Made by a program: the position numbers and the translations under genes
Notes under the pieces: model-generated
The model's database searches: none
What the model was told of the DNA's origin: nothing
Seen by the model: only the letters and a program-made list of their open reading frames with translations
From: a virus
Length of the DNA: 64,000 bases
IMG/VR virus record: IMGVR_UViG_3300007735_000797
Coordinates: 36,043-100,042 of that record
Strand: one strand, 5' to 3'
Shown here: positions 5,267 to 63,006 of the stretch, piece after piece
Position numbering within the stretch: position 1 is the first letter of the stretch
Layout: every line of letters starts with the position of its first letter

Positions 5267-5683
5267 ATGTCTGATATAACAAACAAAGAACAACTCAATA
5301 ATTTTCTAGAAATAACTAATCCAAAAACTTTGAAGCAAGAATCTTCTATAGTGAAGAAAAATGTAGAAGATGACTATGAATATGCTAGAGATAACATTAG
5401 AGAGATTCTAGAGAAGGGCAAAATGGCTTTAGATGGCATTCTTCAGGTTGCTCAGGATGGAGACTCCCCCAGAGCATACGAAGTCGCTACAAATATGCTC
5501 AAGGCTCTCTCAGAGATCAATAAAGATCTCATGGATGTCCATGTTAAGGTCAAGGATAGTGAAAAAACCACAATTAAGCAAACCAATAACGCTATTTTTG
5601 TGGGTTCTACCTTAGATCTTCAAGACATGATAAATAAAGAAAGAAGCTCAAAGAAAGCGATAATACAGGACAACAATGTTTGA
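5267..5683 (+). CDS. gp16: Terminase small subunit, gp16-like
   Basis: This is a 138-residue, mostly helical protein. Residues about 35-100 (DDYEYARDNIREILEKGKMALDGIL, then PRAYEVATNMLKALSEINKDL) match the central coiled-coil region of T4-type small terminases. These oligomerise, recognise DNA and stimulate the gp17 packaging motor. The ATG directly follows the gp14 stop, and the end overlaps the next gene by 8 nt. In T4 the order is 15-16-17; here the small terminase gene precedes the gp15-type gene. Confidence 0.85.
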   Translation: MSDITNKEQLNNFLEITNPKTLKQESSIVKKNVEDDYEYARDNIREILEKGKMALDGILQVAQDGDSPRAYEVATNMLKALSEINKDLMDVHVKVKDSEKTTIKQTNNAIFVGSTLDLQDMINKERSSKKAIIQDNNV

Positions 5684-9746: not shown

Positions 9747-11377
9747 GTAAAAAACATAAAGGTTATTTAGGTAATTCAAACCTCAAAGAGGCTGGAATCC
9801 ATATCGATTATACCCCTGAACAAGTTCAGGAGTATATTAAATGTGCAAAAGATCCAATTTATTTCATCAAAAACTATATTAAAATCGTTTCACTTGATAA
9901 GGGTTTAGTACCTTTTGATCTTTATGATTATCAGGAAGATATTGTTCAAAAAATGCACGATAACAGATTTATCATCGCAAAGCTTCCTCGTCAGTCAGGT
10001 AAATCTACCACAATGGTATCATACATTTTACATTATATTCTGTTTAATCAGAGTATGAATGTGGCTATTCTGGCAAATAAAGGCTCAACTGCTAGAGAAA
10101 TTCTCAGTAGACTCCAATTAGCATATGAGTATCTTCCAAAGTGGTTGCAGCAAGGCGTAGTAGAATGGAATAAAGGATCGTTAAAATTAGAAAACGGATC
10201 TAAAATTATCGCATCCACTACCTCTGCCTCAGCAATTCGTGGTGGATCGTTTAACATGATCTTTTTAGACGAATTTGCTCACGTTCCAAATAATGTTGCT
10301 GAAGAATTCTTTAGTTCAGTCTTCCCAACTGTAACTTCAGGCCAAACAACCAAAGTATTAATGGTCAGTACTCCAAATGGTATGAATATGTTCTACCATT
10401 TCTGGAAGAACGCTATTAAGAAGGACGGAGAGCCGGGTAAGAACGAGTATGTGCCCATTGAAGTAAACTGGAGGCAGATACCCCTTTATCCCGGAGGACC
10501 GATGAGAGGGGCTGAATGGCGGCAGCAAATGATCGATCAGACTAGCGAGATGCAGTTTGAAAGTGAATTTGAATGTTCTTTCTTAGGTTCATCAAACACT
10601 CTTATTTCGACATATAAACTCAATACGCTAGTTTACAACCAGCCATTTGAGCGCAGACCCGGTGGCCTTAGCATTTACAAACCGCCCCATGAAGACGGTA
10701 TTTACTTCTGTGTTGTGGATACATCTAGAGGTCAGGGGCACGATTATAGTGCTTTTGTGATTATAGATGGAAACACAAAGCCATTTGAGGTGGTAGCTGT
10801 TTATAGAAATAATGTAATTTCTCCTTTCGATTTTCCTATCGAAGTTTACAACGCTTGTACAGAATATGGTAATGCCCATTGTTTAGTTGAAATTAATGAT
10901 GTTGGATCTCAGGTAACAGAAATTTTACACAGAGATTATGAATACGAAAACCTAATTTCAACCCAATATATGGGTCGAGCTGGTCAAAAAATCTCTTTAG
11001 GATTCGGTAGAGGTCAAAAACAATTTGGTGTTAGAACTAGCACAGCACTTAAAAAGATCGGGTGTGCTGCTCTTAAAAATTTAATTGAATGTGATAAATT
11101 GGTATTTTCAGATCAGGACATGGTTTCTGAGCTTTATACCTTTATCTCAAAGGCAAACTCATACCAAGCTGATGATGGCTACAACGATGACTTAGTCATG
11201 TGTTTAGTTTTATTTGGATGGCTAACAAGACAGGTTTACTTCGAAGATTTGCTGGATTTAAAGAACAAGAAAATAATAAATACAGAGGAACAACAAGAAA
11301 ATCATATGTTCGTTGCAGATATGGATGAGAGGGAAGATATGAAATTTGGTGGCGACTTATGGTTTGAGGTAAAATAA
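9743..11377 (+). CDS. gp17: Terminase large subunit, gp17-like
   Basis: This 544-residue packaging motor has a Walker A-type loop LPRQSGKSTT (residues 81-90) and a Walker B with catalytic Glu in MIFLDEFAH (D176/E177). A coupling motif follows in MVSTPNG (about 208-213). The C-terminal RNase H-like nuclease domain starts near residue 320 with VVDTSRGQGHDYSAF (D326) and has further acidic residues at LVEINDV and YNDDLV. The enzyme pumps DNA into the prohead through the portal and cuts it at headful. It overlaps the gp15-type gene by 4 nt (ATGA). The length is close to marine T4-like homologs (about 540-560). Confidence 0.95.
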   Translation: MSKKHKGYLGNSNLKEAGIHIDYTPEQVQEYIKCAKDPIYFIKNYIKIVSLDKGLVPFDLYDYQEDIVQKMHDNRFIIAKLPRQSGKSTTMVSYILHYILFNQSMNVAILANKGSTAREILSRLQLAYEYLPKWLQQGVVEWNKGSLKLENGSKIIASTTSASAIRGGSFNMIFLDEFAHVPNNVAEEFFSSVFPTVTSGQTTKVLMVSTPNGMNMFYHFWKNAIKKDGEPGKNEYVPIEVNWRQIPLYPGGPMRGAEWRQQMIDQTSEMQFESEFECSFLGSSNTLISTYKLNTLVYNQPFERRPGGLSIYKPPHEDGIYFCVVDTSRGQGHDYSAFVIIDGNTKPFEVVAVYRNNVISPFDFPIEVYNACTEYGNAHCLVEINDVGSQVTEILHRDYEYENLISTQYMGRAGQKISLGFGRGQKQFGVRTSTALKKIGCAALKNLIECDKLVFSDQDMVSELYTFISKANSYQADDGYNDDLVMCLVLFGWLTRQVYFEDLLDLKNKKIINTEEQQENHMFVADMDEREDMKFGGDLWFEVK

Positions 11378-14300
11378 ATGGCTGAATTAACACACTCACA
11401 TAACATTAGCGGAACTCTTATAGGCCTTACACCCGGAAGTGCTCCTTTAACCGTTGGATTAACCTTTTCTGTTGATGGTGTGTCATTCTCCTCTGTAAAT
11501 TTTGATCTTCGCATTGATGTAGATACTTTTGATTTAAGTGTTCCTTATACTTCTATTGATACTTTTAGAGAATTAAATGGAAGTTCAGAAGTTCTAATTG
11601 CAAATAATTCAAATGGACTTATTGTTAGTAACACTGGAACTACATGGAACCATTTTATTGGAATTACATTATATTCCCCGCAACAAAATATTTTTAATGC
11701 CGGATTAGCAAATCAAATGCTAGCTGGTGATTTACATTATCGAACAAGAGCAAATAATTTTTCTTTAAAATATGGAGCGTTTGGTCAAACAGGAAGTGGC
11801 CAAATAGCAGAAGTCGCATCATCAACAAGAGGCGAAACACTTTCATTTAGACCATTTAATATTGTTTCGGCTACAAATGGAGTTGCAGGATCCACTCTCG
11901 GATTAACTTTACAATCTGCTAATATTCAAAGATATTATGTTGGTATTGGTACTGGTGCAACATTTTTTGGTATTGTTTCATTACTAGGATGCACCAATGG
12001 TATTAATTTAAATTCTTCTAATTTAACATCTACACAAATTTCAGAAATAAATGCTGATTACTTAGATCCTAATATTTCTGGTACTGATTCAAAATTCAAT
12101 ACACTCAGAAGAATTATTGATAATTCTGGTACAACAATATTCAATACTTCTTATACAGAATTTGTAGTGCCAAAACATATTCCGACTGGAAGTTATTATT
12201 TAATGCCAATCCCAAATTCATTTTTTGGACTTCCGGCATTTAGCAATGACGAATCCTTTACAGCTTCGGGACAAAATATTAATTTATCACAAACAAATAT
12301 TAATATTACAAATAATATATCTTCTGGGTTGACTGGAGTTTATAGTTTATCATCTGGTGTAACGCATTTTACAACGGCAATATCAACAAGACTTCCAATT
12401 GTATCACAAGCCTTTTCTAATGTAGATTTTGCTGATAAAACTTTTTCGATATTTGATCCAATAACATTTAATTTAGTTACATCTCCCTATGGAATTACAA
12501 ATAATTTAACAGGAAATACGTTTCATAAGTTAGATTATGGCTTTAATAATAGAGGAACAACTAACTATGGAGGTGCTTTAACGGATAATCCTGTATCTCA
12601 TGTACCACCATTATTTGGATTTATTCCTATTGGATTAACTATTGGAAATACTCTAACTGTATTATTAGATGGTATTACATTTTACGAAAAAATTTATAAT
12701 CCATATAATGTTAATTTTAATAATACATCACTTGCACATTTTTATACAAGTGAAAGTACTATACAAAATAATAAACGTTTTATACGTTTAATAAATGAAT
12801 CTGGCGATTTAGCTGCTAAAAGAAATTTAAATCACATCAATAGAGCATTTTATAGAGTTGATTTTAATAATCATGCTAATCCTTGGGGATTTACTGGATT
12901 TACTTTTGGTCAAGGATCTACACAAAGCCAATTAAAGGTATTTTACGGTAATCCTGCAAATGGTATATCATTTATTCTACCAATAAATACAGGCTCACCA
13001 GCAGACTTTTACTCGTTAACCGGGCAAGACGTTTTTATTCCGATTCAAGGCACTGCTAGTGGATCTACATTGACCCCGGGAGCTTCTGTTGAAATACACT
13101 ATCAAAATAGACCACTTGGGTATCTAGAAAAATTAAATTTATATAATGCATCTGGTAATTTTGCTTTAGGAATTACTATTGCGGATAATAGAACCTTTAT
13201 TCCAAAAAACACAACTGAATTGGGATATATAAGAAAAAACTTTGATCAATCTAATGTTGAAACTTTTATTGTCCCAAATTTAAATAGTGTTGGATCTACT
13301 GGAACTGCAAGAATATCATTTATTAGAGGGGATGGAGTAAGTTTTGAATTTGGCTCAACTCCGATCACAACTCCATTTAGAACATTTTCACCTATACACA
13401 CGATAGGAAATATTTCTGGACTGACGTTAATCGCAACTGGGGTTACACAATCAACAAGCCCAACAAGCTTTACAAGATTTATTGCTCCTGCTGTTGATTT
13501 AATGCGAATAACTGTAAATCATGGCCTAACAAATCTTGAGTCCGGAATAATTGGAAGAAATAATATCCACAGTAGATATTATATGCAATCAAATGTTGAT
13601 AATTTTTTAACTGATGGTAGTTTCTATAGAGGTTATTTGAGTTTTATACTTGATTCTGTCGGTCCAGAAAATGTTGTAAATAATGGTATTAGTGTTACAA
13701 ATCGTACATTGCGTTCTTTTAGAGAAGCTGCTTTAGAACGTGCTAATAACATAAATGCTATAAATGGCATTTCTTTGAGTATTCCTTTGAGAAATTTTCA
13801 AGGTGTTATCACTGAAGGTTGGCCATTCGATACAATTGAAGGTAATAGTTCATTAACTCAATTGATGAACTATTTTAATGGCCCACCATTGACCGAGGCT
13901 CAATTATCAGCAGTTGCAGACACATTTAATTATCCTCAATATGATACCGGGTTTACACTTATGTTTGATCAGGGTGACAGTCCGGATGAGACTTTTAATA
14001 ACGGGGAATGGTTTCTTGCAAATCCTCAATCGTTCTTAAGATATTCCAGTGGCAGCACGTTCTTCCCATCAACTGCATTTAGTTTTGATAATACCACGAT
14101 AAGCTTTCCACACTACATTTTCTATGACTATAGAATTACTGGTGTGACTTTATCATCTACATCTTCTGTTCAATCGCAACAATCATTAACAACAACAATA
14201 ACTGTACAAGATTTACCTCACGCATCAATTTTTGATGGATTAAGACTATCAGTTCTTAATGGTACTTCTGAAGTGTTTACAAAAAATTTATTATATACAA

Positions 14301-15760
14301 CTTCTAGCAGTAATGATTATAGAATACCCGGTTATTCTGGGTTAGGTGTAACAAATTATGCTGCTTATTATACAACTACTCCAAGGGCAATAACTGGTAT
14401 TTTTGTAGGTAGTGGAGTTACGTTAGGGGGAATAACTATTAGTCCCCCAGCAACTGGTTGGCCAGCTTCTGCGACTCTTACTGTAAGAGTAAGTCCAATA
14501 TTTAAATCATTTATTAATATTACAAGTGATGTTGATGTTTTACGGACTAATTCTTATGTTAGAGATACATCATTCTCAACTGCTGCTCAACCAACAACTG
14601 GTGGGGGTGGTGGTGGATCGTCTAGTGGATCCGTAAGCGTATCAGAATCTGTTGTTACTGGTGTCGCTTTCACCTCAACCGAAAACGATTTCTATGCAGG
14701 ATTCCTCTGTGGTACTACTGCTTATAATATTATTACAAATAATAGTACTGCTTCGTATTCAGTACTAACCAGTAGCAGCACAGCCTACGCCAACGCCAAG
14801 GCTGCGTTTGATGCTGGAACTCTAACGTCAAACACTTCAACAGACATTGAAATTCATTCTTTACTTAACTATATGGATTACGGTGGAAACATAATTGTTG
14901 CCCCAACAATTGATGGATTGTTAGGAAGCAATTATGAATATGATGTAGTATTTGCTGAAGACAATAAGAGATATGGTGAATTGATGCGTATTGGTTCTGA
15001 AAAGAATCATGCAATTGTTATTGTTGGAACCTCCCTTGAAGAGGATGCAGCCTCATTTGCAGCTCCAGCATATACTAATCTCAATTCAGCAGGGCTTGTT
15101 GATGGATTGACCTATATGACAACTGCAAATAAGGGTGAATATGTGTTCTCAGTGCTAGGATACAAGAATAGAACCCGTTTCTATGGTTCCGGAACTGATA
15201 CTGTTCGCCTTTATCTGTCCTCTGATGTTGCAGGCGCATATGCTCGTTCGTATGTAGAGAATAAATACCACTTATCAAGCTCTGGTTCGATTAGAGGCGG
15301 AATCAAAACTTATTCAAATATTACTCCAACTATTGTAGATCGTGATCTCTCTGGCTATTACACCAGAGGTATCAACACAATCTACATTCCAAGCGGTACA
15401 AACAGAGCTGCTATTTGGGGAGATGCCACTGGTATTACTACAGGAAACGAAGTATATAGAAAGTCGGCTTCAATCTCCAAGAACACTAGCACAATTAAGA
15501 GAGAATTCAAGAAGATCTTTGAAGACTTCCAATTTGAACAAAATAATGCTGGTACAAGAGCACAATTCGTTTCAAGAGCAACTACTGTTCTTGATAAGTT
15601 GCAATCTGTTGGTGGCCTTGCTTCTTACACGTTAATTTGCAATGAAACAAACAATACCCCAACTGTAATTGCACAGAAGAGATTGGTTGTTGACTTGACA
15701 ATAGTACCGAATAATTCAATCGAATCTATAGTCTTGAATTTTGTTCTTAATCAAATCTAA
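11378..15760 (+). CDS. Tail sheath protein with giant N-terminal extension
   Basis: This is a 1,460-residue protein with a clear ribosome-binding site (GAGGT) before the ATG. Residues about 1087-1460 form a tail-sheath core: FYAGFLCGTTAYNII, IEIHSLLNYMDYGGNI, KRYGELMRIG, YVFSVLGYKNRTRF, FKKIFEDFQFEQNNAGTRAQF and the terminal YTLICNETNNTP..QKRLVVDLTIVPN. This core is collinear with the whole of the next gene (377 residues). The first 1,074 residues are Ser/Thr/Asn/Gly-rich beta-like sequence with no family I recognise. They are joined by a flexible linker of six Gly then SSSGS (residues 1075-1085). T4 gp18 has 659 residues, so this is far longer. I infer that the extension projects from the tail surface. 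No frameshift is visible across the junction. Confidence 0.8.
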   Translation: MAELTHSHNISGTLIGLTPGSAPLTVGLTFSVDGVSFSSVNFDLRIDVDTFDLSVPYTSIDTFRELNGSSEVLIANNSNGLIVSNTGTTWNHFIGITLYSPQQNIFNAGLANQMLAGDLHYRTRANNFSLKYGAFGQTGSGQIAEVASSTRGETLSFRPFNIVSATNGVAGSTLGLTLQSANIQRYYVGIGTGATFFGIVSLLGCTNGINLNSSNLTSTQISEINADYLDPNISGTDSKFNTLRRIIDNSGTTIFNTSYTEFVVPKHIPTGSYYLMPIPNSFFGLPAFSNDESFTASGQNINLSQTNINITNNISSGLTGVYSLSSGVTHFTTAISTRLPIVSQAFSNVDFADKTFSIFDPITFNLVTSPYGITNNLTGNTFHKLDYGFNNRGTTNYGGALTDNPVSHVPPLFGFIPIGLTIGNTLTVLLDGITFYEKIYNPYNVNFNNTSLAHFYTSESTIQNNKRFIRLINESGDLAAKRNLNHINRAFYRVDFNNHANPWGFTGFTFGQGSTQSQLKVFYGNPANGISFILPINTGSPADFYSLTGQDVFIPIQGTASGSTLTPGASVEIHYQNRPLGYLEKLNLYNASGNFALGITIADNRTFIPKNTTELGYIRKNFDQSNVETFIVPNLNSVGSTGTARISFIRGDGVSFEFGSTPITTPFRTFSPIHTIGNISGLTLIATGVTQSTSPTSFTRFIAPAVDLMRITVNHGLTNLESGIIGRNNIHSRYYMQSNVDNFLTDGSFYRGYLSFILDSVGPENVVNNGISVTNRTLRSFREAALERANNINAINGISLSIPLRNFQGVITEGWPFDTIEGNSSLTQLMNYFNGPPLTEAQLSAVADTFNYPQYDTGFTLMFDQGDSPDETFNNGEWFLANPQSFLRYSSGSTFFPSTAFSFDNTTISFPHYIFYDYRITGVTLSSTSSVQSQQSLTTTITVQDLPHASIFDGLRLSVLNGTSEVFTKNLLYTTSSSNDYRIPGYSGLGVTNYAAYYTTTPRAITGIFVGSGVTLGGITISPPATGWPASATLTVRVSPIFKSFINITSDVDVLRTNSYVRDTSFSTAAQPTTGGGGGGSSSGSVSVSESVVTGVAFTSTENDFYAGFLCGTTAYNIITNNSTASYSVLTSSSTAYANAKAAFDAGTLTSNTSTDIEIHSLLNYMDYGGNIIVAPTIDGLLGSNYEYDVVFAEDNKRYGELMRIGSEKNHAIVIVGTSLEEDAASFAAPAYTNLNSAGLVDGLTYMTTANKGEYVFSVLGYKNRTRFYGSGTDTVRLYLSSDVAGAYARSYVENKYHLSSSGSIRGGIKTYSNITPTIVDRDLSGYYTRGINTIYIPSGTNRAAIWGDATGITTGNEVYRKSASISKNTSTIKREFKKIFEDFQFEQNNAGTRAQFVSRATTVLDKLQSVGGLASYTLICNETNNTPTVIAQKRLVVDLTIVPNNSIESIVLNFVLNQI

Positions 15761-15766
15761 TAAATA
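15759..15766 (+). promoter_or_regulatory. Late-promoter-like motif before compact sheath gene
   Basis: AATAAATA overlaps the preceding stop codon and ends 4 nt before the ATG at 15771. No ribosome-binding site is seen. If active, it predicts a transcript starting at about the start codon. Confidence 0.35.
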
Positions 15767-15770
15767 GTAT

Positions 15771-16904
15771 ATGCCGATTACCACAACCACACAATCAAAC
15801 ACATTTAACATCACCCCAGTATCTGCTACAGATCACTATACTGGGTTTTTGTGTTCCACATCGACATATAATTTATTAGGAACAACTGCTGATTCATTTA
15901 CGAATCTTGAAACTATTTCAGACTCTATTTCTACATTAGCGGGAAGAACAAGCTATACCAGTATTACCACAAATAGTCTAGTTGACAGAGAAATCCATTC
16001 AATATTTAATTGCATGGAATATGGTGGTAAAATGGTTATTTCTGGGACTACTGCTGGACTAGCCTTATCGTCAGCTAAAATTTCAGAAGTTATAGCCGAG
16101 GATACCTCTAGATACAGCGACGTAATTAGTGTAGCCAAAGCTAGACTGAATTGCAATGCAATTATTGGTTCTGACAGAGATCAGAGTGGGGACTACACCA
16201 CTCCTGATCAAGCATCAATTATATCCTCAGTATCAACTCAATTGGGGTCTACTGGCACAACAGCAATTTCTTATCTCGCAGCCACAATTATTGGTTATAA
16301 GGAAAGGCCAAGATTCTACACAGGTAGTTCATCCTCTACAAGCGCAATTACAATTTTCCTTGTGTCTGATGCTGCTGGAGCAAATGCTAGAGCGTCAGCA
16401 CAATCAAAACCATATTTAACCTCTGCTGGTGTTTATAGAGGAGAACTTTTAAATTATACAAATGTTACCCCTAAGCTCTCGTTTACATCATCAACAACAC
16501 TAGCCTCAAGAGGAATTAATTATTATAATTATCTCCAATCAAAGGGTAAATATTATCTTTGGGGCGATGAAACAGGATTTAGAGATAGCACAAGTGCTAA
16601 AAGTTCTTATGGTTTCTCCAAAGCATTCCTTTATATTAACCGCGAAGTAACTTCCATATTGGATGATTATGTCTTTGAATTTAATGATGCTACCACTAGG
16701 TCAGCAATCAAATCAAAGATGCAGAATATACTTGATCCGATGATTTCAAGCGGTTCTTTGGTAAGTTATACTTTGATTTGCGACGAAACTAATAATCCAC
16801 AAACAGTAATCAATCAGAGACAGCTTAAAGTAGATCTAACAATAGTACCAAATCTACCAGTTAAGAGCATTACTTTAAGCTTTAGCATATCTCTGTTATC
16901 ATGA
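15771..16904 (+). CDS. gp18: Tail sheath protein, compact gp18-like core
   Basis: This 377-residue protein is the compact version of the sheath fold. Its segments HYTGFLCSTSTYNLL, REIHSIFNCMEYGGKMV, TSRYSDVISVAKARL, YLAATIIGYKERPRFY and the terminal YTLICDETNNPQTVINQRQL plus LKVDLTIVPN align one-to-one with the end of the preceding gene. It appears to hold the contractile core without the surface domains of T4 gp18 (659 residues). No ribosome-binding site precedes the ATG; a late-promoter-like AATAAATA ends 4 nt upstream. It overlaps the third sheath-like gene by 4 nt. It may be the main sheath subunit, since it is the least modified of the three. Confidence 0.85.
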   Translation: MPITTTTQSNTFNITPVSATDHYTGFLCSTSTYNLLGTTADSFTNLETISDSISTLAGRTSYTSITTNSLVDREIHSIFNCMEYGGKMVISGTTAGLALSSAKISEVIAEDTSRYSDVISVAKARLNCNAIIGSDRDQSGDYTTPDQASIISSVSTQLGSTGTTAISYLAATIIGYKERPRFYTGSSSSTSAITIFLVSDAAGANARASAQSKPYLTSAGVYRGELLNYTNVTPKLSFTSSTTLASRGINYYNYLQSKGKYYLWGDETGFRDSTSAKSSYGFSKAFLYINREVTSILDDYVFEFNDATTRSAIKSKMQNILDPMISSGSLVSYTLICDETNNPQTVINQRQLKVDLTIVPNLPVKSITLSFSISLLS

Positions 16905-18313
16905 ACATAGTTAACTACGGACAAACTACAGTACCAAGCGATTTTAAAATTCTCGCTTTTGTATCTCCATTAACGCAAAGTGTTTTGTCCGGAATAACTA
17001 CTTCAAGTCTTGGGTCTGATCAATTAACATATGTAGAGTCGTTAGAAGATTTTGTAGATACTTTATTTGGTTATACTGCTATAACTTTTCAAGCTGGATC
17101 AGGAGCAACTGCTGAGAAAATAACGGATGTGGAGTTACATGGCATAATGACGATGCTTGAATATGGAGCATCTGTATATGTTATGAATACTACTGGTTTA
17201 ACAGAATCAGGTGCATATACAACAAAAAATATTCAAAGCGTTATTAACTCGACAGGTGCAGGGTGCATTGTTAACAATGTATTTGATGGATTGACTGGTT
17301 CTGGGTTTACTGGAATACAAGATACTCCAATAATAATTCAAAATACAGATTTTGAACAAAGATTATTAAATTATTTTATCACAGAAGTTAATGATCCCGG
17401 AAATACAGCTGGAACCCCCTTTACATATAACGATCAGCTGGGCGAAATATATGCCAATTTTCAAGATGACATTCAGCCATCTGATACATTTACAGAATTA
17501 TTTCCTTCATTAGGTAAGTTTGCTTATGATACATTTCCATCGGCAGTTTATGGAACTTCAGAATATAATAATTTTATCGTATCCAACGGAAAATTAATCG
17601 ATCAAAATATTATAGAGCTTTTGGGTATTAAGATAAGAAATAGATGTATCAATCCAGAGACAAACCCAGAATCTACAAGTGAACTTTGGACTAAAATTCC
17701 GGTTCCGATGGTTTATGATCTAGCTGGTCAGTTTTCAAGGCTTAATTTAGCCGGAACTCCATGGAGCAGCACATCAAATTTCTTGGTAGGTCCATTGCTT
17801 AATATTGTTCAAGACGATGGTGAATATGTTTTGCCGTTTTCGGATAGCAATTCAGTGGCTGAGTTTAAAAATACCATCACCGGACTTATCAATAATAGAA
17901 TAAATTATGCAACTTTCTATAGTTTTGACGGAATTTATGGTTGCTATTTCTTAAGTGATCTGACTTGCGAATCTCAAACTGATAATTCGGCTCCATTTAC
18001 GCTGGCTCAAAGCGAAAAAAGCGTTTATTTTGTAAACATTACAAAGTATATTAAAACTAAAATTTCATCAATTTGTGAAAATTATGTGTTTGAACTAAAC
18101 AATGAGATAACTCGTTTACAGTTAACATCTGAAATATTAACCTTCATGAATGGATTGCTGTCTGACGGAGCTATTAATAACTTTAATATTGTTGCGGATG
18201 ATACAAATAACACATTTGAAGATCGTATAAATAGAAGGTTGAGGGTAGATGTATCCTATACAACTAATCCAACAAATGATTTTGTGGAGCAATCAATAAT
18301 TATCATACCTTAA
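16901..18313 (+). CDS. Third tail sheath-like paralog
   Basis: This is a 470-residue, more divergent sheath relative that starts on an ATGA overlap with the 377-residue sheath gene. Shared landmarks are FKILAFVSPLTQSVL near the N-terminus, TDVELHGIMTMLEYGASVYV (about residues 77-96), and a C-terminus in sheath order: IKTKISSICENYVFELNNEI, FNIVADDTNNTFEDRINRRL and RVDVSYTTNP. The middle holds about 100 residues that have no counterpart in the two neighbours. It could be a minor sheath subunit for one end of the tail, or a sheath-derived collar protein. Sheath ancestry is well supported; a contractile role is inferred. Confidence 0.75.
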   Translation: MNIVNYGQTTVPSDFKILAFVSPLTQSVLSGITTSSLGSDQLTYVESLEDFVDTLFGYTAITFQAGSGATAEKITDVELHGIMTMLEYGASVYVMNTTGLTESGAYTTKNIQSVINSTGAGCIVNNVFDGLTGSGFTGIQDTPIIIQNTDFEQRLLNYFITEVNDPGNTAGTPFTYNDQLGEIYANFQDDIQPSDTFTELFPSLGKFAYDTFPSAVYGTSEYNNFIVSNGKLIDQNIIELLGIKIRNRCINPETNPESTSELWTKIPVPMVYDLAGQFSRLNLAGTPWSSTSNFLVGPLLNIVQDDGEYVLPFSDSNSVAEFKNTITGLINNRINYATFYSFDGIYGCYFLSDLTCESQTDNSAPFTLAQSEKSVYFVNITKYIKTKISSICENYVFELNNEITRLQLTSEILTFMNGLLSDGAINNFNIVADDTNNTFEDRINRRLRVDVSYTTNPTNDFVEQSIIIIP

Positions 18314-54209: not shown

Positions 54210-56759
54210 ATGAACTTTTACACATGTGTTGAGATTCGTGGCAACAAGATTCTTTATAGAGGGGTGGAAGATGGGAGTCGGGTCTGTAGGGAAATTCCTT
54301 ACAGGCCCACTCTTTATTCTTATACCCACAAACCATCCGATTGGAAGACTCTTGATGGTAGGGCTGTAGAGCCAATCAAGCCCGGTACAATCACAGAGAC
54401 TAGAGACTTTCTAGATCAGTACGCCAATATTTCTGGTTTCTCTATCTTTGGGCAAACTGACTTCATCTACCAGTTTATTGGTGAAGAATTTCCCAATGAC
54501 ATTGATTATAAGGTAGATCAAATTGTTACTGCCTTTATTGATATTGAAACCAAGTGTGAGGCTGGGTTTCCGAACATTGAAACTGCCAATGAACAGGTGA
54601 TTGCGATCACCGTGCGGATCAAGAACAAGTCTTATGTCTATGGCTTAGGTACTTTCCACATTGACAATCCGAATGTTAGCTGTCATCAGTATGACAACGA
54701 AAATCAAATGCTTAAGGACTTTATTGAGTTCTGGGAGCAGCAAAAGCCTGACATTGTAACTGGATGGAACGTCAGATTCTTCGATATTCCATATCTTTAT
54801 AATCGAATTTCTTACCTGTTTGGAGAAGATACGGCCAATCGCCTATCTCCTTGGAAGAAAGTAATTAAGAAGAAGATCGACACCAAGTCATCTCGCGGAG
54901 AGCAAACCGCCTGTGATATTATTGGCGTATCTACTCTAGACTACTACGAGTTGTATAAGAAGTTTACTTACACCAATCAGGAATCTTACCGATTGGATTA
55001 TATTGCTTCTGTTGAACTCGGTGAAAAGAAACTGTCTTATGATGAATATGACAGCCTGAGAGAATTCTACAAGCAGGACTTCAATAAGTTCATTCACTAT
55101 AACTTCCATGACGTAGAACTGGTCTTCAAATTGGATCAGAAGATGAAGTTGATTGAACTTGTTCTTGCTGTTGCATATTCAGCAAAGGTGAATCACGAAG
55201 ATGTTTATAGCCAAGTTAGGACTTGGGACACCATCATTTACCACGAACTCAGTAAGAAGAATATTGTTATTCCTCCAAAGAAGGAAGCAATTAAAGAGGC
55301 ACAATATGCTGGGGCGTATGTAAAGGATCCAATTGTAGGGATGCATGAATGGGTAGTTTCATTTGACTTGAACAGTCTGTACCCACACTTGATCATGCAA
55401 TATAACATCTCTCCAGAGACAAAGGCGGACTGTGGATCTTTGTTTGGCCGTGGTGTTGTAACCCCAGATATGATTTTGGATGATACCAACGATGCCAAGA
55501 AATTCACAGGACTTGCGAAGAAAGAAAACGTAAGTCTCGCCGCCAATGGTGTAGCATTTACCAAGAAGTTTCAGGGCTTTCTACCGAAGCTTATGGAGCA
55601 GATGTACGAAGAGCGAAGCCTGTACAAGAAGAAGATGATTGAGGCTCAGAAGACTCTTGAAAAGCTAGATCCTGATGCTCCGCAGAGCGTTAAGGAAGAG
55701 CTTGAATTCTTGATTGCCAAGTACAATAATTTCCAGATGGCGCGTAAGATTCAGTTGAACTCTGCTTACGGTGCGATTGGAAACGAATACTTTCGGTACT
55801 ATGACGAAGCCAACGCGGAAGCAATTACTATTTCAGGACAGCTTTCCATTCGCTGGATTCAGGGTAAGATCAATGTCTTGCTAAATGGAATGCTTAAGAC
55901 TGATGACGATTATGTGATCGCAAGCGATACTGATTCAGTATATGTGAACATGGGTCCTATTGTTGACAAGTTCTGCGAAGGAAAGACCAAGGAACAGACA
56001 GTAGATTTCTTGGACAAGTCTTGCAAGGAACTGGTCGAGCCTTTCATCAAGAAGTGCTACGAAGAACTCGCCAACAAGATGAATGCTTATGGAAATAAAA
56101 TGAGCATGAAGCGAGAATCTATCGCGTCGAAGGGTATTTGGACAGCCAAGAAGCGATATGTGCTCCTAGTACACGATTCAGAAGGTGTTAGATACGCAAA
56201 GCCCAAGATTAAGATCATGGGCATTGAAACTACTCGTTCATCCACACCACAAGTAGTCCGCGATGAACTGAAGAAGTGTATTGAAATCATTATGTTGCTC
56301 GACAACAATACTCTGCTCAATTATATCGATGAATTTAGGAAGCGATTCAAGAAGCTTCCGGCTGAGGATGTTGCATTCCCCAGATCAGTCAATGGTATGA
56401 AAGACTATACTGATTCCCTGAATATCTACAAGAAGGGAACCCCCATTGCCGTTAAGGGAGCACTGATTTACAACCATTATATCAAGAAGAACAAACTGGA
56501 GAAAAAGTATCAGTTGATTCGTGATGCTGACAAGATTAAGTTTGTATATCTAAAGACTCCGAATCCGATTGCTGGTTGCTTTGGCAAGGATCAGGTTATC
56601 TCCTTCTATTCGTCTTTGCCGAAAGAACTTGATTTATCGTCTTATATCGACTATGATACTCAGTTTGAGAAAGCGTTCTTGGATCCACTCAAGAGCATAA
56701 TCGAAGCTATCGGGTGGAAGACAGAAAACAGAAATACTCTGGAGTCATTATTTGCATAA
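54210..56759 (+). CDS. gp43: Family B DNA polymerase, gp43-like
   Basis: The start at 54210 gives 849 residues and the family-like beginning MNFYTCVEIRGNKILYRGVE. The 3'-5' exonuclease motifs are AFIDIETK (D111/E113), TGWNVRFFDIPYLYNR and YNFHDVELV. Polymerase motif A is DLNSLYPHLIMQYNISPE (D386), motif B is KIQLNSAYGAIGNEYFRYYD, and motif C is ASDTDSVYV (D573/D575). KKRYVLLVHD and KIMGIETTRSSTP follow in the thumb. It is the replicative polymerase, tethered by gp45. Length is slightly below T4 gp43 (898). No intein or intron is seen in it. Confidence 0.97.
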   Translation: MNFYTCVEIRGNKILYRGVEDGSRVCREIPYRPTLYSYTHKPSDWKTLDGRAVEPIKPGTITETRDFLDQYANISGFSIFGQTDFIYQFIGEEFPNDIDYKVDQIVTAFIDIETKCEAGFPNIETANEQVIAITVRIKNKSYVYGLGTFHIDNPNVSCHQYDNENQMLKDFIEFWEQQKPDIVTGWNVRFFDIPYLYNRISYLFGEDTANRLSPWKKVIKKKIDTKSSRGEQTACDIIGVSTLDYYELYKKFTYTNQESYRLDYIASVELGEKKLSYDEYDSLREFYKQDFNKFIHYNFHDVELVFKLDQKMKLIELVLAVAYSAKVNHEDVYSQVRTWDTIIYHELSKKNIVIPPKKEAIKEAQYAGAYVKDPIVGMHEWVVSFDLNSLYPHLIMQYNISPETKADCGSLFGRGVVTPDMILDDTNDAKKFTGLAKKENVSLAANGVAFTKKFQGFLPKLMEQMYEERSLYKKKMIEAQKTLEKLDPDAPQSVKEELEFLIAKYNNFQMARKIQLNSAYGAIGNEYFRYYDEANAEAITISGQLSIRWIQGKINVLLNGMLKTDDDYVIASDTDSVYVNMGPIVDKFCEGKTKEQTVDFLDKSCKELVEPFIKKCYEELANKMNAYGNKMSMKRESIASKGIWTAKKRYVLLVHDSEGVRYAKPKIKIMGIETTRSSTPQVVRDELKKCIEIIMLLDNNTLLNYIDEFRKRFKKLPAEDVAFPRSVNGMKDYTDSLNIYKKGTPIAVKGALIYNHYIKKNKLEKKYQLIRDADKIKFVYLKTPNPIAGCFGKDQVISFYSSLPKELDLSSYIDYDTQFEKAFLDPLKSIIEAIGWKTENRNTLESLFA

Positions 56760-56802
56760 TCTAAACATTAGTCAATTTTATTGCTTTCTTCGTAAGGAAC
56801 AT

Positions 56803-57369
56803 ATGTACCAGCACCAAGACCATATTGGTGAATTTGATAAGGTAATGGTATTTGGAATTCAATCTTGCTCAGGAAGCGCGATGACTTTCCATGTCATGAC
56901 TGACTATGGATTGGTTAGAAGTAGAGTCCCAATCCACATGTTGTGCTGGAAACAAGATGCACCTCCTATGCCTCTGGATTATCTACAGCTGTGGGATTGC
57001 TTTCATGAAAATGTTTCTGTTGTAGAATATGATGCTTTATTTGATACAAGAGCAAAGGTTATTCTGAAAGATAAGTCAGAGCATTGGGGGGAATACGTTA
57101 TGACATTTGATTGGTATCGAAATTCTTATTCCGATGAACCATCTCAGTATAAATGTCTTCATATGATTGCTTTGGACAATGGCAACTACACTCTACAACC
57201 AAATAATAGAATCTATTGGAAGAATATGTCATTTGTAACTAAACCTTTTCCTACAAACCCGGATTTCAAGGTTGACAACAAGAGTTGGAGATGCGAGGGA
57301 GAAAGTGATCGCTGGATCATTGACGGACACGACGATAATTACTATTATGATATCAAGGAGAATAAATAA
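56803..57369 (+). CDS. Conserved marine T4-like phage protein of unknown function
   Basis: The ATG at 56803 has the ribosome-binding site AAGGA (56794-56798); a TTG-started longer frame would overlap gp43. It gives 188 residues starting [20 protein letters not shown], with [20 protein letters not shown] and a W-rich later half. I recall this pattern from marine T4-like phages, between gp43 and uvsX, without a known function. The aromatic-rich middle suggests a folded, soluble protein. It overlaps uvsX by 1 nt. Confidence 0.6.
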
Positions 57370-58274
57370 TGGATTTTTTAAAGGAAATGATTAATGCGTC
57401 TGGTAACAAATTTGCTAGCAAAGTCGAAGACGGTCTTGACGGATCTGATGTTGGTGGGTATGTTGATACTGGGTCTTATGCTTTTAATGCTCTTCTTTCT
57501 GGCAGTCTTTTTGACGGTTTACCTAATAACAAGATTACCTGTTTGGCTGGTGAGTCTGCTACTGGCAAGACTTACTTCAGCCTTGGTATCGTTGCACAGT
57601 TTCTTGCAGCCAACCCCGAAGGCGTAGTACTATACTTTGATACCGAACAGGCAGTAACTAGCGACATGTTTACAGAGCGCGGTGTGGATCCTACTCGCGT
57701 TGCTGTTTTCCCAGTAGAAACAGTTGAAGAGTTCCGCCACCAGTGCCTGACAATCGTTGACAAGGTTCTTGCGACAGACGAATCTGAGCGCAAGCCGATG
57801 ATGATTGTCCTTGACTCACTGGGCATGTTGAGCACTGCCAAGGAAATGAATGATGTCGCTGAAGGTAAGAATACCCGCGACATGACACGCGCACAAGTCA
57901 TCAAGGGAACCTTCCGTGTTCTTACGCTGAAGCTTGGCAAGGCCAAGATTCCCATGGTTATGACAAACCATACTTATGATGTCGTTGGTTGCCTATCAGA
58001 CGATGTCAATGTCCTAATGGAAGATGGAACGGTGAAGAATATCTCTGATGTTGTGGTTGGAGACAGAGTGGAAACAATGGGCGGATCATCCTCAGTTACC
58101 AAACTATTTTCGTATGATGTGAATGAAGTTATTGAAGTTGAACTAAGTGATGGTACAACTTTCTTTGCTACCCCAAATCACAAGTTTATGACAAGAGATG
58201 GTTCTTGGAAACCTATCTCAGACATCGGGGAGGGTGAGGATATTCTTGCTGTCGAGGAGTTTGCGAAGTCGTGA
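57369..58274 (+). CDS. uvsX: UvsX recombinase N-terminal part fused to intein N-half
   Basis: This is a 301-residue ORF with a good ribosome-binding site (AAGGAG). Residues 1-207 are UvsX/RecA: Walker [10 protein letters not shown] (61-69), [24 protein letters not shown] (Walker B) and [11 protein letters not shown]. At residue 208 the recombinase sequence stops and an intein begins with Cys: [20 protein letters not shown] and later [18 protein letters not shown] (block B, T-x-x-H). The ORF ends at codon 301. Joined to the downstream part, UvsX would be 336 residues, close to marine homologs. The protein would be inactive unless it is trans-spliced. Confidence 0.95.
57990..58271 (+). other. 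Split intein, N-terminal half (IntN)
   Basis: Codons 208-301 (94 residues) of the UvsX N-terminal ORF. Block A starts at the catalytic Cys (C1) after the extein sequence DVVG; block B is [10 protein letters not shown] with the conserved Thr and His. It ends where endonuclease domains are usually inserted in full inteins. Confidence 0.92.
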
Positions 58275-58856
58275 ATAAGGAATACCAATACTCTTCGCTG
58301 CCCATCGAATGCTTGGATATGAAACTCCATTCACGACAACTTCCTTTGATCTTGGATCACATAGGGACTTCTTTAGTTTGTATGAATCTGATGTTACCGA
58401 TTCCTTCCATTTTGTGGAGTTTCGTCTACCTTCAGATAATGCCTCTCCATCGTAGTTTTTTCGCAAAATGTCGGGGTCTATTGTCTTATATGTTCTACGA
58501 CCTTCTGCATATGCTTGCTTCAAAGAAATGGATCTTTTGGTACGGGATTGTTCTGAATGGATTTTTCCCTTCAGAGAATCTGAAATGTTTTTCTTCCAAT
58601 CAACCGAAGAGTCAGATTTTATGAACTTTTGGAATCCATCTTTGGCTAGTTCTATTCGTGTCACTTCTGCTTCTTCGGTCTTTCCGGAAAGCATTTTCCA
58701 AGCCACAAAGTCTTCTTGTTTGCCGTGTTTCTCATATAGGAGTCTGTGTGCTTCTGCGTGTTCTTTAACAGAAAGAAGAACAAGATTTGATGGGTCATCA
58801 GTTCCACCCATGTGTCTTGGTATTATATGATGTTTATGTTTTAAATTAATTTGCAT
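58218..58856 (-). CDS. HNH endonuclease inserted between the uvsX intein halves
   Basis: This 212-residue protein is on the opposite strand to all neighbours. [20 protein letters not shown] (residues about 7-26) is an HNH core, followed by [16 protein letters not shown] Ser/Lys-rich helical middle leads to a C-terminal IENR1-type helix-turn-helix ([20 protein letters not shown]). Its 3' end overlaps the end of the uvsX N-part by 57 nt tail to tail. It replaces the position of the endonuclease domain in standard inteins, so it probably drives homing of the split-intein cassette into intact uvsX genes. No clear promoter is seen. Confidence 0.9.
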
Positions 58857-58889
58857 TACCCCATATGTATGGTTTAGGAGATTTAAACA

Positions 58890-59009
58890 ATGAGTATTCT
58901 ACAAATAGTAAAAAAGACGGTACACACTAATCGTCCAACCAAGGTTTATGATTTTACTGTCGAAAACGACCACCACTATATTCTTTCCAACGGAGTTATT
59001 TCCCACAAC
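58890..59009 (+). other. Split intein, C-terminal half (IntC)
   Basis: Residues 1-40 of the second ORF. Block F ([17 protein letters not shown]) and block G (GVISHN followed by Ser) are present, with the penultimate His and terminal Asn needed for cleavage. The first 12 residues ([12 protein letters not shown]) serve only as its start. Confidence 0.92.
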
Positions 59010-59399
59010 TCTTATGTTCCAATGAAAGAACTAGGTGGTGGATCTGGTCTAAAATATGCGGCTTCTACTATCGTAACATTGTCCAAGAAGAAGGACAAGC
59101 AGGATGATGAAGTTGTAGGTAATATCATTACTTGCAAGCTTTACAAGAGCCGACTAACCAAGGAAAACAAGATCGTTCAGGTTCAACTGAATTTCGATAG
59201 CGGTCTGAACCGTTACTACGGTCTTGTTGACCTTGCCTTGGATTACGGTATCTTCAAGAAGAACTCTACCAAGATTGAGCTTCCTGATGGTACAAAGGTG
59301 TTTGAGAAGCATATCAACGAAGAACCTGAGAAGTATTTCACTCAGGAGATTCTAAAGCAAATTGATGAGCGCGTTCAGGAGGATTTCAAGTATGGCTGA
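58890..59399 (+). CDS. uvsX: Intein C-half fused to UvsX C-terminal part
   Basis: This is a 169-residue ORF with its own ribosome-binding site (AGGAG, 58876-58880) 9 nt before the ATG. Residues 1-40 are the intein C-half, with [20 protein letters not shown] then HN. The UvsX sequence resumes at S41: [20 protein letters not shown], which contains the L2-type DNA-binding loop, and runs to the normal C-terminus (129 residues). The +1 residue is Ser, so splicing would go through an ester at Ser. The insertion is just before the L2 loop, a highly conserved site. Confidence 0.95.
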
Positions 59400-59664
59400 T
59401 GTATTATTCTGTGACGGACATGACAATGCATTTATGGGTCTTATGTGGAGATTCGGACATACTGCTCCAATCGCTGCATATAGTAGACCAACAATAATAA
59501 AGAATCTAATGTCAGAAGGTATGACCCACGATGATGCTGAAGAATTTTTTGAATTCAATATAATCGGTGCATGGGTTGGAGAGGGTACTCCATGTTTCAT
59601 TGAAACTATAGGAATTGATGAGGCAAAAGAAGTTGTAAAGGACTACAGCGATGAAGAAGTATAA
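59392..59664 (+). CDS. Small conserved-type phage protein of unknown function
   Basis: The start at 59392 is set by the strong AGGAGG (59378-59383) inside the UvsX C-part and gives 90 residues. The sequence [20 protein letters not shown], then [20 protein letters not shown] and [11 protein letters not shown], looks like a compact folded protein. It overlaps the UvsX end by 8 nt and the next gene by 14 nt. I do not know its role; its place between uvsX and gp41 suggests a replication accessory protein. Confidence 0.55.
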
Positions 59665-59959
59665 CTTACGCCCCGACATGAATGCGGAGACCATGCCATT
59701 AGAAGTTGCTGATGGTAAATTTAAAGGTTACGTCTTCACTCTTGGTAAAATTCACATCAAGGAAGACAATGACCAGTTGCTTTTGGACTTCACTTATGAT
59801 ATTCTAGAGGGAGATATCACAGGCATTCCAAAGAAAGAATTTGATGTCATTGTAGGTGATATTGTTGTCCAATTACTTGAGGAAGAAGAAGCCCGTATAG
59901 GCAAGGAGCCAATTGATGTCGATGGAGAAAATTATATTGAAGAATCTAGCGACGAATGA
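59651..59959 (+). CDS. Acidic protein of unknown function before gp41
   Basis: This 102-residue protein is acidic at its C-terminus (VQLLEEEEARIGKEPIDVDG, ESSDE) with a beta-like first half (GYVFTLGKIHIKEDNDQLLL, DFTYDILEG). It overlaps both neighbours, and the gp41 ribosome-binding site lies within it. The family is not recognised. A small gene at this place is common in marine T4-like phages. Confidence 0.5.
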   Translation: MKKYNLRPDMNAETMPLEVADGKFKGYVFTLGKIHIKEDNDQLLLDFTYDILEGDITGIPKKEFDVIVGDIVVQLLEEEEARIGKEPIDVDGENYIEESSDE

Positions 59960-61310
59960 GACTTACGCCAGAAAGGTTCATCCGTTCCTCAAGCAAGAAT
60001 ATTTTGGCAGCACTACTACAAAGACTGTCTTTGATCTAATCAATAACTTCATTTCGAAGTACAATAGCCTCCCCTCAAGGGAGGCTATGATTATTTCTCT
60101 TAACGAGATGGACATTGTTTCCGAGGATCAATACAAGGAAACACATGAATGTATCGAAGAAATTTTTTCTAATTCTGAGTCAAGTGAACTTACTTGGCTC
60201 GTAGAACAAACTGAAAACCATGTTAAGGACAAGGCTGTTTACAACGCAATCATGGATTCAATTCATATCATTGAAGGTAAGTCCAAGACATACACAAAGA
60301 ACGCCATTCCTAGTATTCTTTCTAATGCATTGTCAGTATCCTTTGATAATCATATCGGCCACGATTATATTGATGATGCAGAGCGACGATTTGCCTTCTA
60401 CCACCAAGTAGAAAAGCGGGTTCCATTTGATCTTGAGTTTTTCAATGCCATTACTGGTGGTGGTGTGCCATCCAAAACACTTAATATTGTCATGGCGGGT
60501 ACAGGTGTAGGTAAATCACTATTCCTTTGCCATCACGCAGCCAATTGCTTGATGCAGAATCTAAATGTACTTTACATTACATGCGAAATGGCTGAAGAGC
60601 GGATTGCAGAACGCATTGACGCAAATCTACTGGATATCACGATTGACGATCTCAAGACCCTGCCTAAGTCCATCTACGACAAGAAGATTGCAGATCTTCA
60701 ATCTACGATCAAGTCCAAACTTATTGTCAAGGAATATCCAACAGCATCAGCATCAGTCACTAACTTCAAACATCTACTGGATGAATTGAAGATTAAAAAG
60801 CGATTTGTGCCTGATGTTATTTTCATTGATTATTTGAATATCTGTGCATCTGCTCGGCTCAAGGCTGGTGCGAATGTGGGTAGCTATTACTACATTAAGG
60901 CTATTGCCGAAGAGATTCGTGGGTTGGCAGTGGAATACAATGTGCCAATCTTCTCTGCTACCCAAGTCAATCGTTCGGGATTTGCCAATAGTGATTTTGG
61001 TCTTGAGGACACATCTGAATCATTCGGTCTACCAGCAACTGCGGATTTCTTTGTTGCACTTATCGCCACGGAAGAACTCGATGAACTTGACCAAATTATG
61101 GTCAAGCAGTTGAAGAATCGCTATAATAGCGCAACGGTAAACAAGAAGTTCGTCCTTGGCATCAATCGGGCAAAGATGAAGCTCTTTGATGTCAAGCGCG
61201 AAGAACAGCAGAATATTTCTGAGTCAAATCAGAACAATCCTCATGGGTATGGGGATGGATTTGACGGTAAGAAGTTTAGCCGTGACTTTAGCGACTGGAC
61301 GATTGAATGA
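59916..61310 (+). CDS. gp41: Replicative DNA helicase, gp41-like
   Basis: The ribosome-binding site AAGGAG (59903-59908) favours the ATG at 59916 over the TTG at 59913 or the ATG at 59922, giving 464 residues. The RecA-like motor has Walker A MAGTGVGKS (about 193-201), a helicase segment YITCEMAEERIAERIDANLL, Walker B DVIFIDYLNICASARLKAG, and VPIFSATQVNRSGF. It is a DnaB-type hexameric helicase that unwinds DNA ahead of gp43 and binds gp61 primase. No intein is found here, although gp41 is a known split-intein site in environmental phage sequences. It overlaps gp61 by 4 nt. Confidence 0.95.
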   Translation: MSMEKIILKNLATNETYARKVHPFLKQEYFGSTTTKTVFDLINNFISKYNSLPSREAMIISLNEMDIVSEDQYKETHECIEEIFSNSESSELTWLVEQTENHVKDKAVYNAIMDSIHIIEGKSKTYTKNAIPSILSNALSVSFDNHIGHDYIDDAERRFAFYHQVEKRVPFDLEFFNAITGGGVPSKTLNIVMAGTGVGKSLFLCHHAANCLMQNLNVLYITCEMAEERIAERIDANLLDITIDDLKTLPKSIYDKKIADLQSTIKSKLIVKEYPTASASVTNFKHLLDELKIKKRFVPDVIFIDYLNICASARLKAGANVGSYYYIKAIAEEIRGLAVEYNVPIFSATQVNRSGFANSDFGLEDTSESFGLPATADFFVALIATEELDELDQIMVKQLKNRYNSATVNKKFVLGINRAKMKLFDVKREEQQNISESNQNNPHGYGDGFDGKKFSRDFSDWTIE

Positions 61311-62314
61311 GCGCATACATTGACAAGATGTTCATTAACATGGTTTCCGACAACCTGAAAAGGTTTAAATGGAAGAAAGACAATCTTGCTAATTGTCGCT
61401 GTCCATTCTGCGGAGATTCCAAGAAGCGTAAGAACATTGCCCGGGGGTATTTCTACCAAAAGGGCAATGATTTCTTTTTCCGTTGCCATAACTGTGGATA
61501 CGGCACTAATCTTTACAATTTCTTGGACAACATGAACCCAAATCTTGCCAAAGAATACGCTTTGCGTAGATTTACCTGTGGAGAAAATGGAAGATCCAAT
61601 TACAAGAAACCAAAGAATGAAGAACTTTTTACCCCAAGCAAGAAAGTTGCTATATTCGAAAAGCCGATCAATAGCGTCAATGTTTGTGACCTTAGTCCTG
61701 ATGATAAAGTCGTTCAGTATCTTGAAAGTCGTAAGATTCCCGATGAATCGCTGTGCTATTTTTATTACACCGAGGACTTCTCACAACTCGCCAAATACTT
61801 TGATCCCGAGCACAATCTCAAACCAGAGCCGAGACTCGTCATTCCATTCTATAATGACTCAAAGGAACTCATTGGAGTCCAAGGTCGTGCGTTGGAAGCA
61901 GATTCCAAAATCCGCTATATTACTCTCAAGAAGGATTCGGTGGAGAAATTATGGTATGGACTTTGGAGAGTGAATCCAGAGGAACCAATCTATATCACAG
62001 AAGGACCGATTGACAGCATCTTCCTACCTAACTCTCTTGCAATGGTTGGTGCTGCTGGGGACATGAAGCTTCCTGAGAAGATTGCAAAGAGTGAGGTAAT
62101 CTATGTCTTTGATAACGAGAAGCGCAACAAACAGATATGTGCGTTTATGGAAACTGTCATTGAGAAAGGCCATAAGATTCTTATTTGGCCAGATGTTAAG
62201 GTCAAGGATATTAACGACTATGTTCTTGCGTTTGGTGATCCGATGGCTATGATACGCTCCAATACGCATTCAGGTCTTGAAGCAAAATTGAGGTTTATGA
62301 AATGGAAAAAGTAA
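61307..62314 (+). CDS. gp61: DNA primase, gp61-like
   Basis: This 335-residue primase starts at an ATGA overlap with gp41. The zinc ribbon uses C32, C35, C60 and C63 (RCPFCGDSKK, FFRCHNCGYGTNLYNF). The TOPRIM-type catalytic part has YITEGPIDSIFLPN and VIYVFDNEKRNKQ, with DVKVKDINDYV. It makes primers for lagging strands together with gp41. Its end overlaps the ThyX start by 13 nt. Confidence 0.92.
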   Translation: MSAYIDKMFINMVSDNLKRFKWKKDNLANCRCPFCGDSKKRKNIARGYFYQKGNDFFFRCHNCGYGTNLYNFLDNMNPNLAKEYALRRFTCGENGRSNYKKPKNEELFTPSKKVAIFEKPINSVNVCDLSPDDKVVQYLESRKIPDESLCYFYYTEDFSQLAKYFDPEHNLKPEPRLVIPFYNDSKELIGVQGRALEADSKIRYITLKKDSVEKLWYGLWRVNPEEPIYITEGPIDSIFLPNSLAMVGAAGDMKLPEKIAKSEVIYVFDNEKRNKQICAFMETVIEKGHKILIWPDVKVKDINDYVLAFGDPMAMIRSNTHSGLEAKLRFMKWKK

Positions 62315-63006
62315 ATGTACTTGATAAGGGTTTCGTTCGACTCATTGAAGTGATGGGTTCTGATTTGACTGTTGTAAATGCGGCCAGAGTCTCGTTCCAC
62401 AAGGAATCATCTTGGGACGGAGAACAGCACTGGACCGGATCAATTACTGGTAAGACCCTACCAGACAAGGACAAGAAGCTTATTTCGTATCTGGCCAAGC
62501 ACAAGCATTGGACCCCCTTTGCCCATCCCCAGATCATGCTCCATATCAAGGCCCCTATTTCGATTCGTACTCAGCTTTTTAAGCACAAGGTCGGATTCGT
62601 TGAAAATGAAATTTCTCGTCGGTATGTAACCGAAGAACCCGAAATTTACACTCCAAAATGGCGCACAAAGCCCACAAATGGGGCCAAACAGGGGTCAGAA
62701 GACTTTCTTACCAATGAAGACACACTAGCGGCTGCTGAGGCCATGTATTTTGAGGTGGCTAGCGATGCCCTAAAGACCTACCAATGGCTCATTGGGGCGG
62801 GAATTGCCCCAGAACAGGCTCGGTTTGCCCTACCACAGGGTACATACACCGAATGGTACTGGACGGGTTCTCTGGCCGCTTATGCCCGTGTTTTTAAGCA
62901 AAGAATTGACCCCCACGCTCAATGGGAGGTTCGGGAATACGCAAATGCCATGGGTAGTCTAATTCAACCTAATTTCCCAGTCTGTTGGGCAGAACTTACC
63001 AAGTAA
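62302..63006 (+). CDS. thyX: Flavin-dependent thymidylate synthase ThyX
   Basis: This 234-residue enzyme makes dTMP from dUMP with FAD. The ThyX motif (usually RHRxxSxNExSxRY) is changed to KHKVGFVENEISRRY (residues 94-108), preceded by PISIRTQLF; the FAD-binding Arg/His pair is partly replaced by Lys and His. WTPFAHPQIMLHIKAP (70-85) and FALPQGTYTEWYWTGSLAA are also typical. Related marine phages appear to carry a similar Lys variant. It begins inside the gp61 end. Confidence 0.92.
   Translation: MEKVNVLDKGFVRLIEVMGSDLTVVNAARVSFHKESSWDGEQHWTGSITGKTLPDKDKKLISYLAKHKHWTPFAHPQIMLHIKAPISIRTQLFKHKVGFVENEISRRYVTEEPEIYTPKWRTKPTNGAKQGSEDFLTNEDTLAAAEAMYFEVASDALKTYQWLIGAGIAPEQARFALPQGTYTEWYWTGSLAAYARVFKQRIDPHAQWEVREYANAMGSLIQPNFPVCWAELTK

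Follow-up and report, generated by a model that had tools for sequence, protein, structure and literature searches.

Genes broken by a split intein are not new to phage genomics: in the "fractured genes" of Dassa et al. 2009, a conserved phage enzyme is said to be broken up by a split intein whose two halves flank a free-standing endonuclease gene. Here, we describe a locus of this general kind in the recombinase gene uvsX of a virus. The window, i.e., the whole stretch of 64,000 nucleotides that was analysed, covers positions 36,043 to 100,042 of IMG/VR record IMGVR_UViG_3300007735_000797, a 100-kb virus record with a T4-like gene set. Its uvsX is interrupted by a split intein, and between the intein halves, on the opposite strand, lies the gene of an HNH homing endonuclease. 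We interpret the split intein and the antisense endonuclease gene, together with a control region of its own upstream of the latter, as one mobile cassette, and assign this reading a probability of about 0.88.

Further precedents come from group I introns and from free-standing phage enzymes. I-TevI has an operator upstream of its own gene that is identical to the homing site at 15 of 20 positions, overlaps a late promoter and serves self-repression (PMC2988022). SegA adjoins uvsX and also targets it, and the Mob enzymes are HNH nickases (PMC2988022). Antisense endonuclease genes are described from nuclear group I introns, as in the case of I-DsqI (PMC9548176).

Anatomy and recurrence of the interrupted uvsX

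The UvsX N-extein (57369–57989, + strand; 207 aa, ending in ...TNHTYDVVG) matches the phrog_97 UvsX-like recombinase over residues 1–207 (E = 2e-60) and continues into IntN (57990–58274, +; 94 aa starting with Cys1, plus the stop codon), the two together spanning 57369–58274 (+). IntN scores above the cut-off of TIGR01445 intein_Nterm and has homologs in the other cassette loci. IntC (58890–59009, +; 40 aa, ending in HN; TIGR01443 intein_Cterm, E = 3e-9, above cut-off) starts at an ATG of its own, preceded by a ribosome-binding site of the GGAG type, and leads into the C-extein (59010–59399, +; phrog_97), which starts with Ser at +1 and includes the stop codon; IntC and C-extein together occupy 58890–59399 (+). 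The junctions read ...NHTYDVVG/C and HN/SYVP.... IntN and IntC lie on separate open reading frames (ORFs) and display Cys1, a TxxH-type block B, the HHY...HN motif and a residue of the Ser/Thr/Cys set at +1, all expected of a split intein. As two proteins, they would presumably splice UvsX in trans. A contiguous, cis-splicing endonuclease intein was also considered and rejected, since the HNH gene is on the opposite strand and IntN ends in a stop codon. An Rfam scan of 56–61 kb returned no match, and thus there is no sign of an intron there.

The endonuclease gene (58218–58856, −; 212 aa) overlaps the 3' end of IntN convergently by 57 nt (58218–58274, where the IntN stop codon ends), so that this stretch also encodes the C-terminal tail of the HNH protein. 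That a separate antisense HNH gene with such an overlap exists was the starting point of the original prediction, and it is borne out by the ORF coordinates and by two profile matches, one to the HNH family of Pfam (E = 2e-5, passing the curated cut-off) and one to phrog_655, a 'homing endonuclease' profile (E = 1e-23). Across 15 aligned relatives, the histidines and the asparagine of the HNH motif do not vary, and the dN/dS ratio is ~0.1 against an 82%-identical relative (~0.06 for IntN), indicating purifying selection on both. Invariant HNH residues combined with such a ratio identify the HNH ORF as a real gene.

In its layout, the protein has an HNH head, a helical middle and a tail modelled as a beta-hairpin plus helix-turn-helix at residues 173–202, with residues 205–212 disordered. 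An IENR1-type C-terminus, likewise proposed, is plausible: it was not detected in the window's own copy, while relatives gave matches, both below cut-off, to the DNA-binding domain of I-TevI (E = 0.001) and to NUMOD1 (E = 0.006), and the modelled helix-turn-helix agrees with it. A Foldseek search with the model gave non-significant matches, 1i3j being at the top. Among the more distant matches, MobE of Aeh1 is 29% identical, and a relative in Synechococcus phage S-H34 is found among structural genes. Relatives having the HNH head alone in common carry different tails, and no uvsX was found near the two of them that were checked (L180 and L182; L and G numbers denote compared loci and contigs, W the window's own sequence). 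Neither did the distant tail relatives L282–L292 yield a uvsX match. A search of genome contigs returned a single locus, with the match restricted to HNH residues 5–68.

When IMG/VR was searched with the sequences of UvsX, the intein and HNH, and the loci were mapped by tblastn, 17 distinct loci emerged with identical gene order and strands, the same uvsX codon interrupted and an antisense HNH gene. The IntN/HNH overlap varied from 33 to 105 nt across the five lineages measured. Such a recurrence indicates that the arrangement is neither due to chance nor an assembly fault. At the loci examined, IntN is followed by a stop codon and IntC has a separate start. The counterpart is provided by 97 distinct empty alleles with a clean, uninterrupted site, in which the N- and C-exteins are contiguous with a gap of 0. 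As in fractured genes, a split intein thus divides the gene of a conserved enzyme, an endonuclease ORF lies between the halves, and relatives have a precise empty site. No contiguous intein was found at this uvsX site in IMG/VR. One further locus, L245 (930–2386), has the split intein at this position of uvsX but no HNH gene; a short stretch separates the halves, and the IntN stop and separate IntC start are still present. The original prediction would have been contradicted by homologs lying always elsewhere, or by a target unrelated to the insertion site; instead, all of the near-full-length HNH relatives found lie at uvsX, and a predicted binding element lies beside the insertion point (see below).

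Joint movement of intein and endonuclease

In pairwise comparisons, the similarity of both intein and HNH departs from that of UvsX, and in the same direction. W and L158 share 69% identity in UvsX, with 88% in the intein and 82% in HNH; the corresponding values are 95%, 69% and 62% for W and L163, and 67%, 86% and 82% for L161 and L163. Such a pattern indicates that intein and HNH travel together. The occupied L006 and the empty L088, which come from different metagenomes, resemble the states after and before an insertion: ~4.2 kb differ by the cassette and six single-nucleotide polymorphisms alone, with three mismatches in 3,848 nt upstream (−1, −33, −55) and three in 386 nt downstream (+0, +2, +11). 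These polymorphisms turn the +1 Ala of the empty allele into Ser, the residue needed for splicing. More broadly, +1 is Ala in 20 of the 20 closest distinct empty alleles and Ser in the window, and the C-extein begins with Ser in the cassette loci read. Thus, homing seems to bring the splicing residue along.

The window itself carries a comparable footprint. Between −16 and +24, 12 of 40 positions mismatch the nearest empty allele, vs. 7 of 284 in the flanks (Fisher 7e-8); in the control, one empty allele against another, the values were 7.8% and 6.7%. The window DNA shows no difference from IMG/VR contig 3300011113_000396 over the compared stretches. G001, a contig with an empty allele from the metagenome of the latter, shares 73.6% identity with W upstream of the insertion and is fully identical for 3.3 kb (window 59034–62345), starting 24 nt downstream of it. 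This boundary may be a recombination junction at the homing site and may in part be contig chimerism; given a possible assembly effect, we do not use the identical tract as main evidence. Overall, we propose the following scenario. In cassette-free uvsX, the HNH tail would bind ~6–26 nt upstream of where the intein inserts, and the head would cut or nick the DNA near this insertion point. Repair from an occupied copy would then insert the cassette along with a short flank carrying the +1 Ser codon that splicing needs.

Where could the endonuclease have come from? The original prediction supposed that a free-standing homing endonuclease had been captured, and that the same HNH might be found without an intein in other phages. 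Such forms do exist and represent two lineages: in L162, L165/L166/L179 and L176, HNH stands alone, divergent from an uninterrupted uvsX and tens of nt upstream of it. In the HNH tree, L162 and L165 branch apart from the captured clades, and L176 groups with L177 and L181 (100/98), a topology that requires at least two switches between the free-standing and captured states. The cassette HNHs have extra C-terminal residues read from the antisense strand of IntN, which the free-standing ones do not have. The restriction of this tail to cassette HNHs, and its disorder in the model (residues 205–212), favours capture of a free-standing gene, and the 57-nt overlap may be a mere by-product of it. 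Since L176 is nested among captured forms, the traffic may run both ways. Capture may also have freed the intein halves to become split, as further proposed; a contiguous intein, which could give the order of events, was not found at the site in IMG/VR. It is suggestive that the half-site is changed in some free-standing carriers (L162, L165), as self-immunity would have it; the lineages are few, and L176 does not have the change.

The upstream element and the alternative readings

A de novo motif search in HNH upstream regions, run without any uvsX input, recovered AATCATACATATTA in all 20 loci, at a distance of 0–21 nt upstream of the HNH start. The conserved element is 14 nt long, with AAYCATRYNTAY as its core. 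In the window, the putative operator so defined is TAAACCATACATATGGGGTA (58857–58876, −), immediately before the HNH start, and the upstream element is identical to the uvsX flank at 16 of 22 positions. The likeness to uvsX had been noticed before the motif search, and the fair test is therefore a matrix built without the window's clade. When this matrix was run over both strands of the 100 kb, HNH's own upstream region ranked first and the uvsX flank at 57966 second of 200,058 positions; the predicted binding element spans 57964–57983 (+), −26 to −6 from the intein insertion. A target near the insertion point in inteinless uvsX alleles, in line with the original prediction, is thus supported at the level of predicted binding. 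The third match, AACCATACTTACGA at ~15,040 of G000 (before the window), follows closely, with 14.0 vs. 14.4 bits for the uvsX flank in the 14-nt matrix and 15.0 vs. 16.4 in a 20-nt one. At other loci, the 14-nt matrix placed the uvsX site at rank 1–4 of ~8,500–17,000 positions per locus; under the 20-nt matrix, its rank drops to 10 in L162 and 33 in L165. In 86 distinct uvsX upstream regions without HNH, the maximum was 8.7 bits, vs. 13.7–20.4 bits with HNH. The leave-clade-out matrix replaces an earlier test in which uvsX flank and HNH upstream region were compared without gaps against shuffles, with significance in some loci only.

A homing-site-like operator upstream of an endonuclease gene is what characterises I-TevI, and, by analogy, HNH may repress its own gene through the mimic site before its start. 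An element of this kind could also be a promoter or RNA signal and nothing else, its likeness to uvsX being due to chance or a recombination relic. The element is AT-rich, and TATAAATA, the T4-type late promoter, abuts it in several other clades, although not in the window. Against such a signal stands the leave-clade-out result, in which the uvsX flank is the top non-self site of the genome. Moreover, the element is kept upstream of HNHs just 41–62% identical to the window's and is absent from the uvsX upstream regions without HNH, while its spacing of 0–21 nt, in more than one frame relative to HNH, argues against both coding sequence and a decaying relic. We regard the signal-only explanation as rather unlikely, if a serious competitor. 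The intein halves might not depend on HNH for their movement; HNH would then be a free-standing endonuclease that settled as a passenger in an intein split beforehand and otherwise immobile. In line with this, free-standing relatives occur next to intact uvsX genes, and L245 keeps the split halves after HNH loss. Yet, intein and HNH change hosts together, L006 and L088 differ by both at once, and the near-full-length relatives keep to uvsX, which makes a passenger improbable. Even less credit can be given to a role of the antisense overlap as a source of antisense RNA controlling IntN, another suggestion made at the outset. The presence of an overlap in every lineage measured would suit it, but the length follows how far the HNH tail reaches into the IntN antisense strand, and free-standing HNHs stop earlier, so a by-product of insertion suffices.

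Several points weigh against the mobile-cassette reading and its self-control. The evidence is wholly computational: anatomy, recurrence, joint mobility, footprints and motif match can be read from the sequences, and binding, cleavage, splicing and autorepression are what we infer from them. The bounds of the −16 to +24 patch were picked after the mismatches had been seen. The high ranks of the uvsX site at other loci are not independent of one another because uvsX is homologous among loci, and the uvsX element is also protein-coding (NHTY). Finally, TATAAATA is not enriched in the window, and neither a T4-type late promoter nor a sigma70-like one was found at the window HNH; sigma70-like promoter and terminator scans stayed at chance level, and we claim no promoter for this gene.

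An additional line of evidence on the tail comes from L242 (4235–5059, −). There, the uvsX site is the same, and the antisense position of the HNH gene is taken by the gene of a GIY-YIG protein of 274 aa. Its head is of the SegE type (E = 2e-4, slightly short of the curated cut-off), and its tail is homologous to that of the HNH family (hhalign probability 99.3). The upstream element of the HNH loci was not found in L242. This protein fits the idea that the tail sets the address and that catalytic heads are exchangeable. Taking the above together, we lean towards a picture in which an antisense, intein-associated endonuclease controls itself through a homing-site mimic, switches between free-standing and captured states carrying the element, and has a tail that also occurs with a GIY-YIG head.

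Other interruptions of uvsX were also seen. L174 (reverse complement 4659–5570) and L242 (5161–6099) have uvsX with two inteins, namely, the split intein at this site and a contiguous mini-intein ~11 residues further, inside the C-terminal ORF. In L035 (3094–5262), the second uvsX site, also used by cultured phages (see below), is occupied by a split intein whose halves enclose an HNH gene of a different type (NUMOD3 motifs), here on the sense strand. As for the surroundings in the window, split uvsX lies downstream of the DNA polymerase gene; a 205-aa ORF between them (56752–57369) had no Pfam match.

Relation to known systems

The locus offers naturally matched alleles from before and after the homing of a split intein, one endonuclease in both its free-standing and its captured form, and a binding site predicted within ~20 nt. 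Two questions thereby become directly testable: by what route endonucleases become part of protein-splicing elements, and how split inteins keep their mobility. The coconverted +1 Ser would show how an intein enters hosts whose own Ala would not support splicing. Should the operator be real, the autoregulation by homing-site mimicry described for group I introns would reach an intein cassette as well, and the solution of I-TevI would recur in an enzyme of another class and in a protein-splicing element.

Compared with the fractured genes as they are reported, the endonuclease here is an HNH enzyme with a NUMOD-like tail, it lies on the opposite strand and the host gene is uvsX; free-standing relatives beside uninterrupted uvsX and the homing-site mimic before the start set it further apart. 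In the cultured T4-like phages Shewanella Thanatos-1, Yersinia TG1 and Vibrio EniLVp02, uvsX is also split by an intein, and the halves enclose the gene of a homing endonuclease. They use the second insertion site ~11 residues further (GG/C...HN/T), and their endonuclease is on the sense strand, being GIY-YIG as annotated in Thanatos-1 and TG1. I-TevI resembles our HNH in the homing-site-like operator upstream and in a DNA-binding domain weakly similar to the HNH tail, but it is a GIY-YIG enzyme encoded in sense in the td group I intron of T4, not an HNH enzyme encoded in antisense between split-intein halves. MobE and SegA, unlike the window HNH, are free-standing, outside any protein-splicing element. 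I-DsqI shares the orientation opposite to the interrupted gene and differs in being a His-Cys enzyme of an RNA intron, with no intein involved. We found no paper on an antisense endonuclease in a split intein in a search that reached part of the literature. Overall, the general kind of element is already known, while its antisense arrangement and operator mimic look new.
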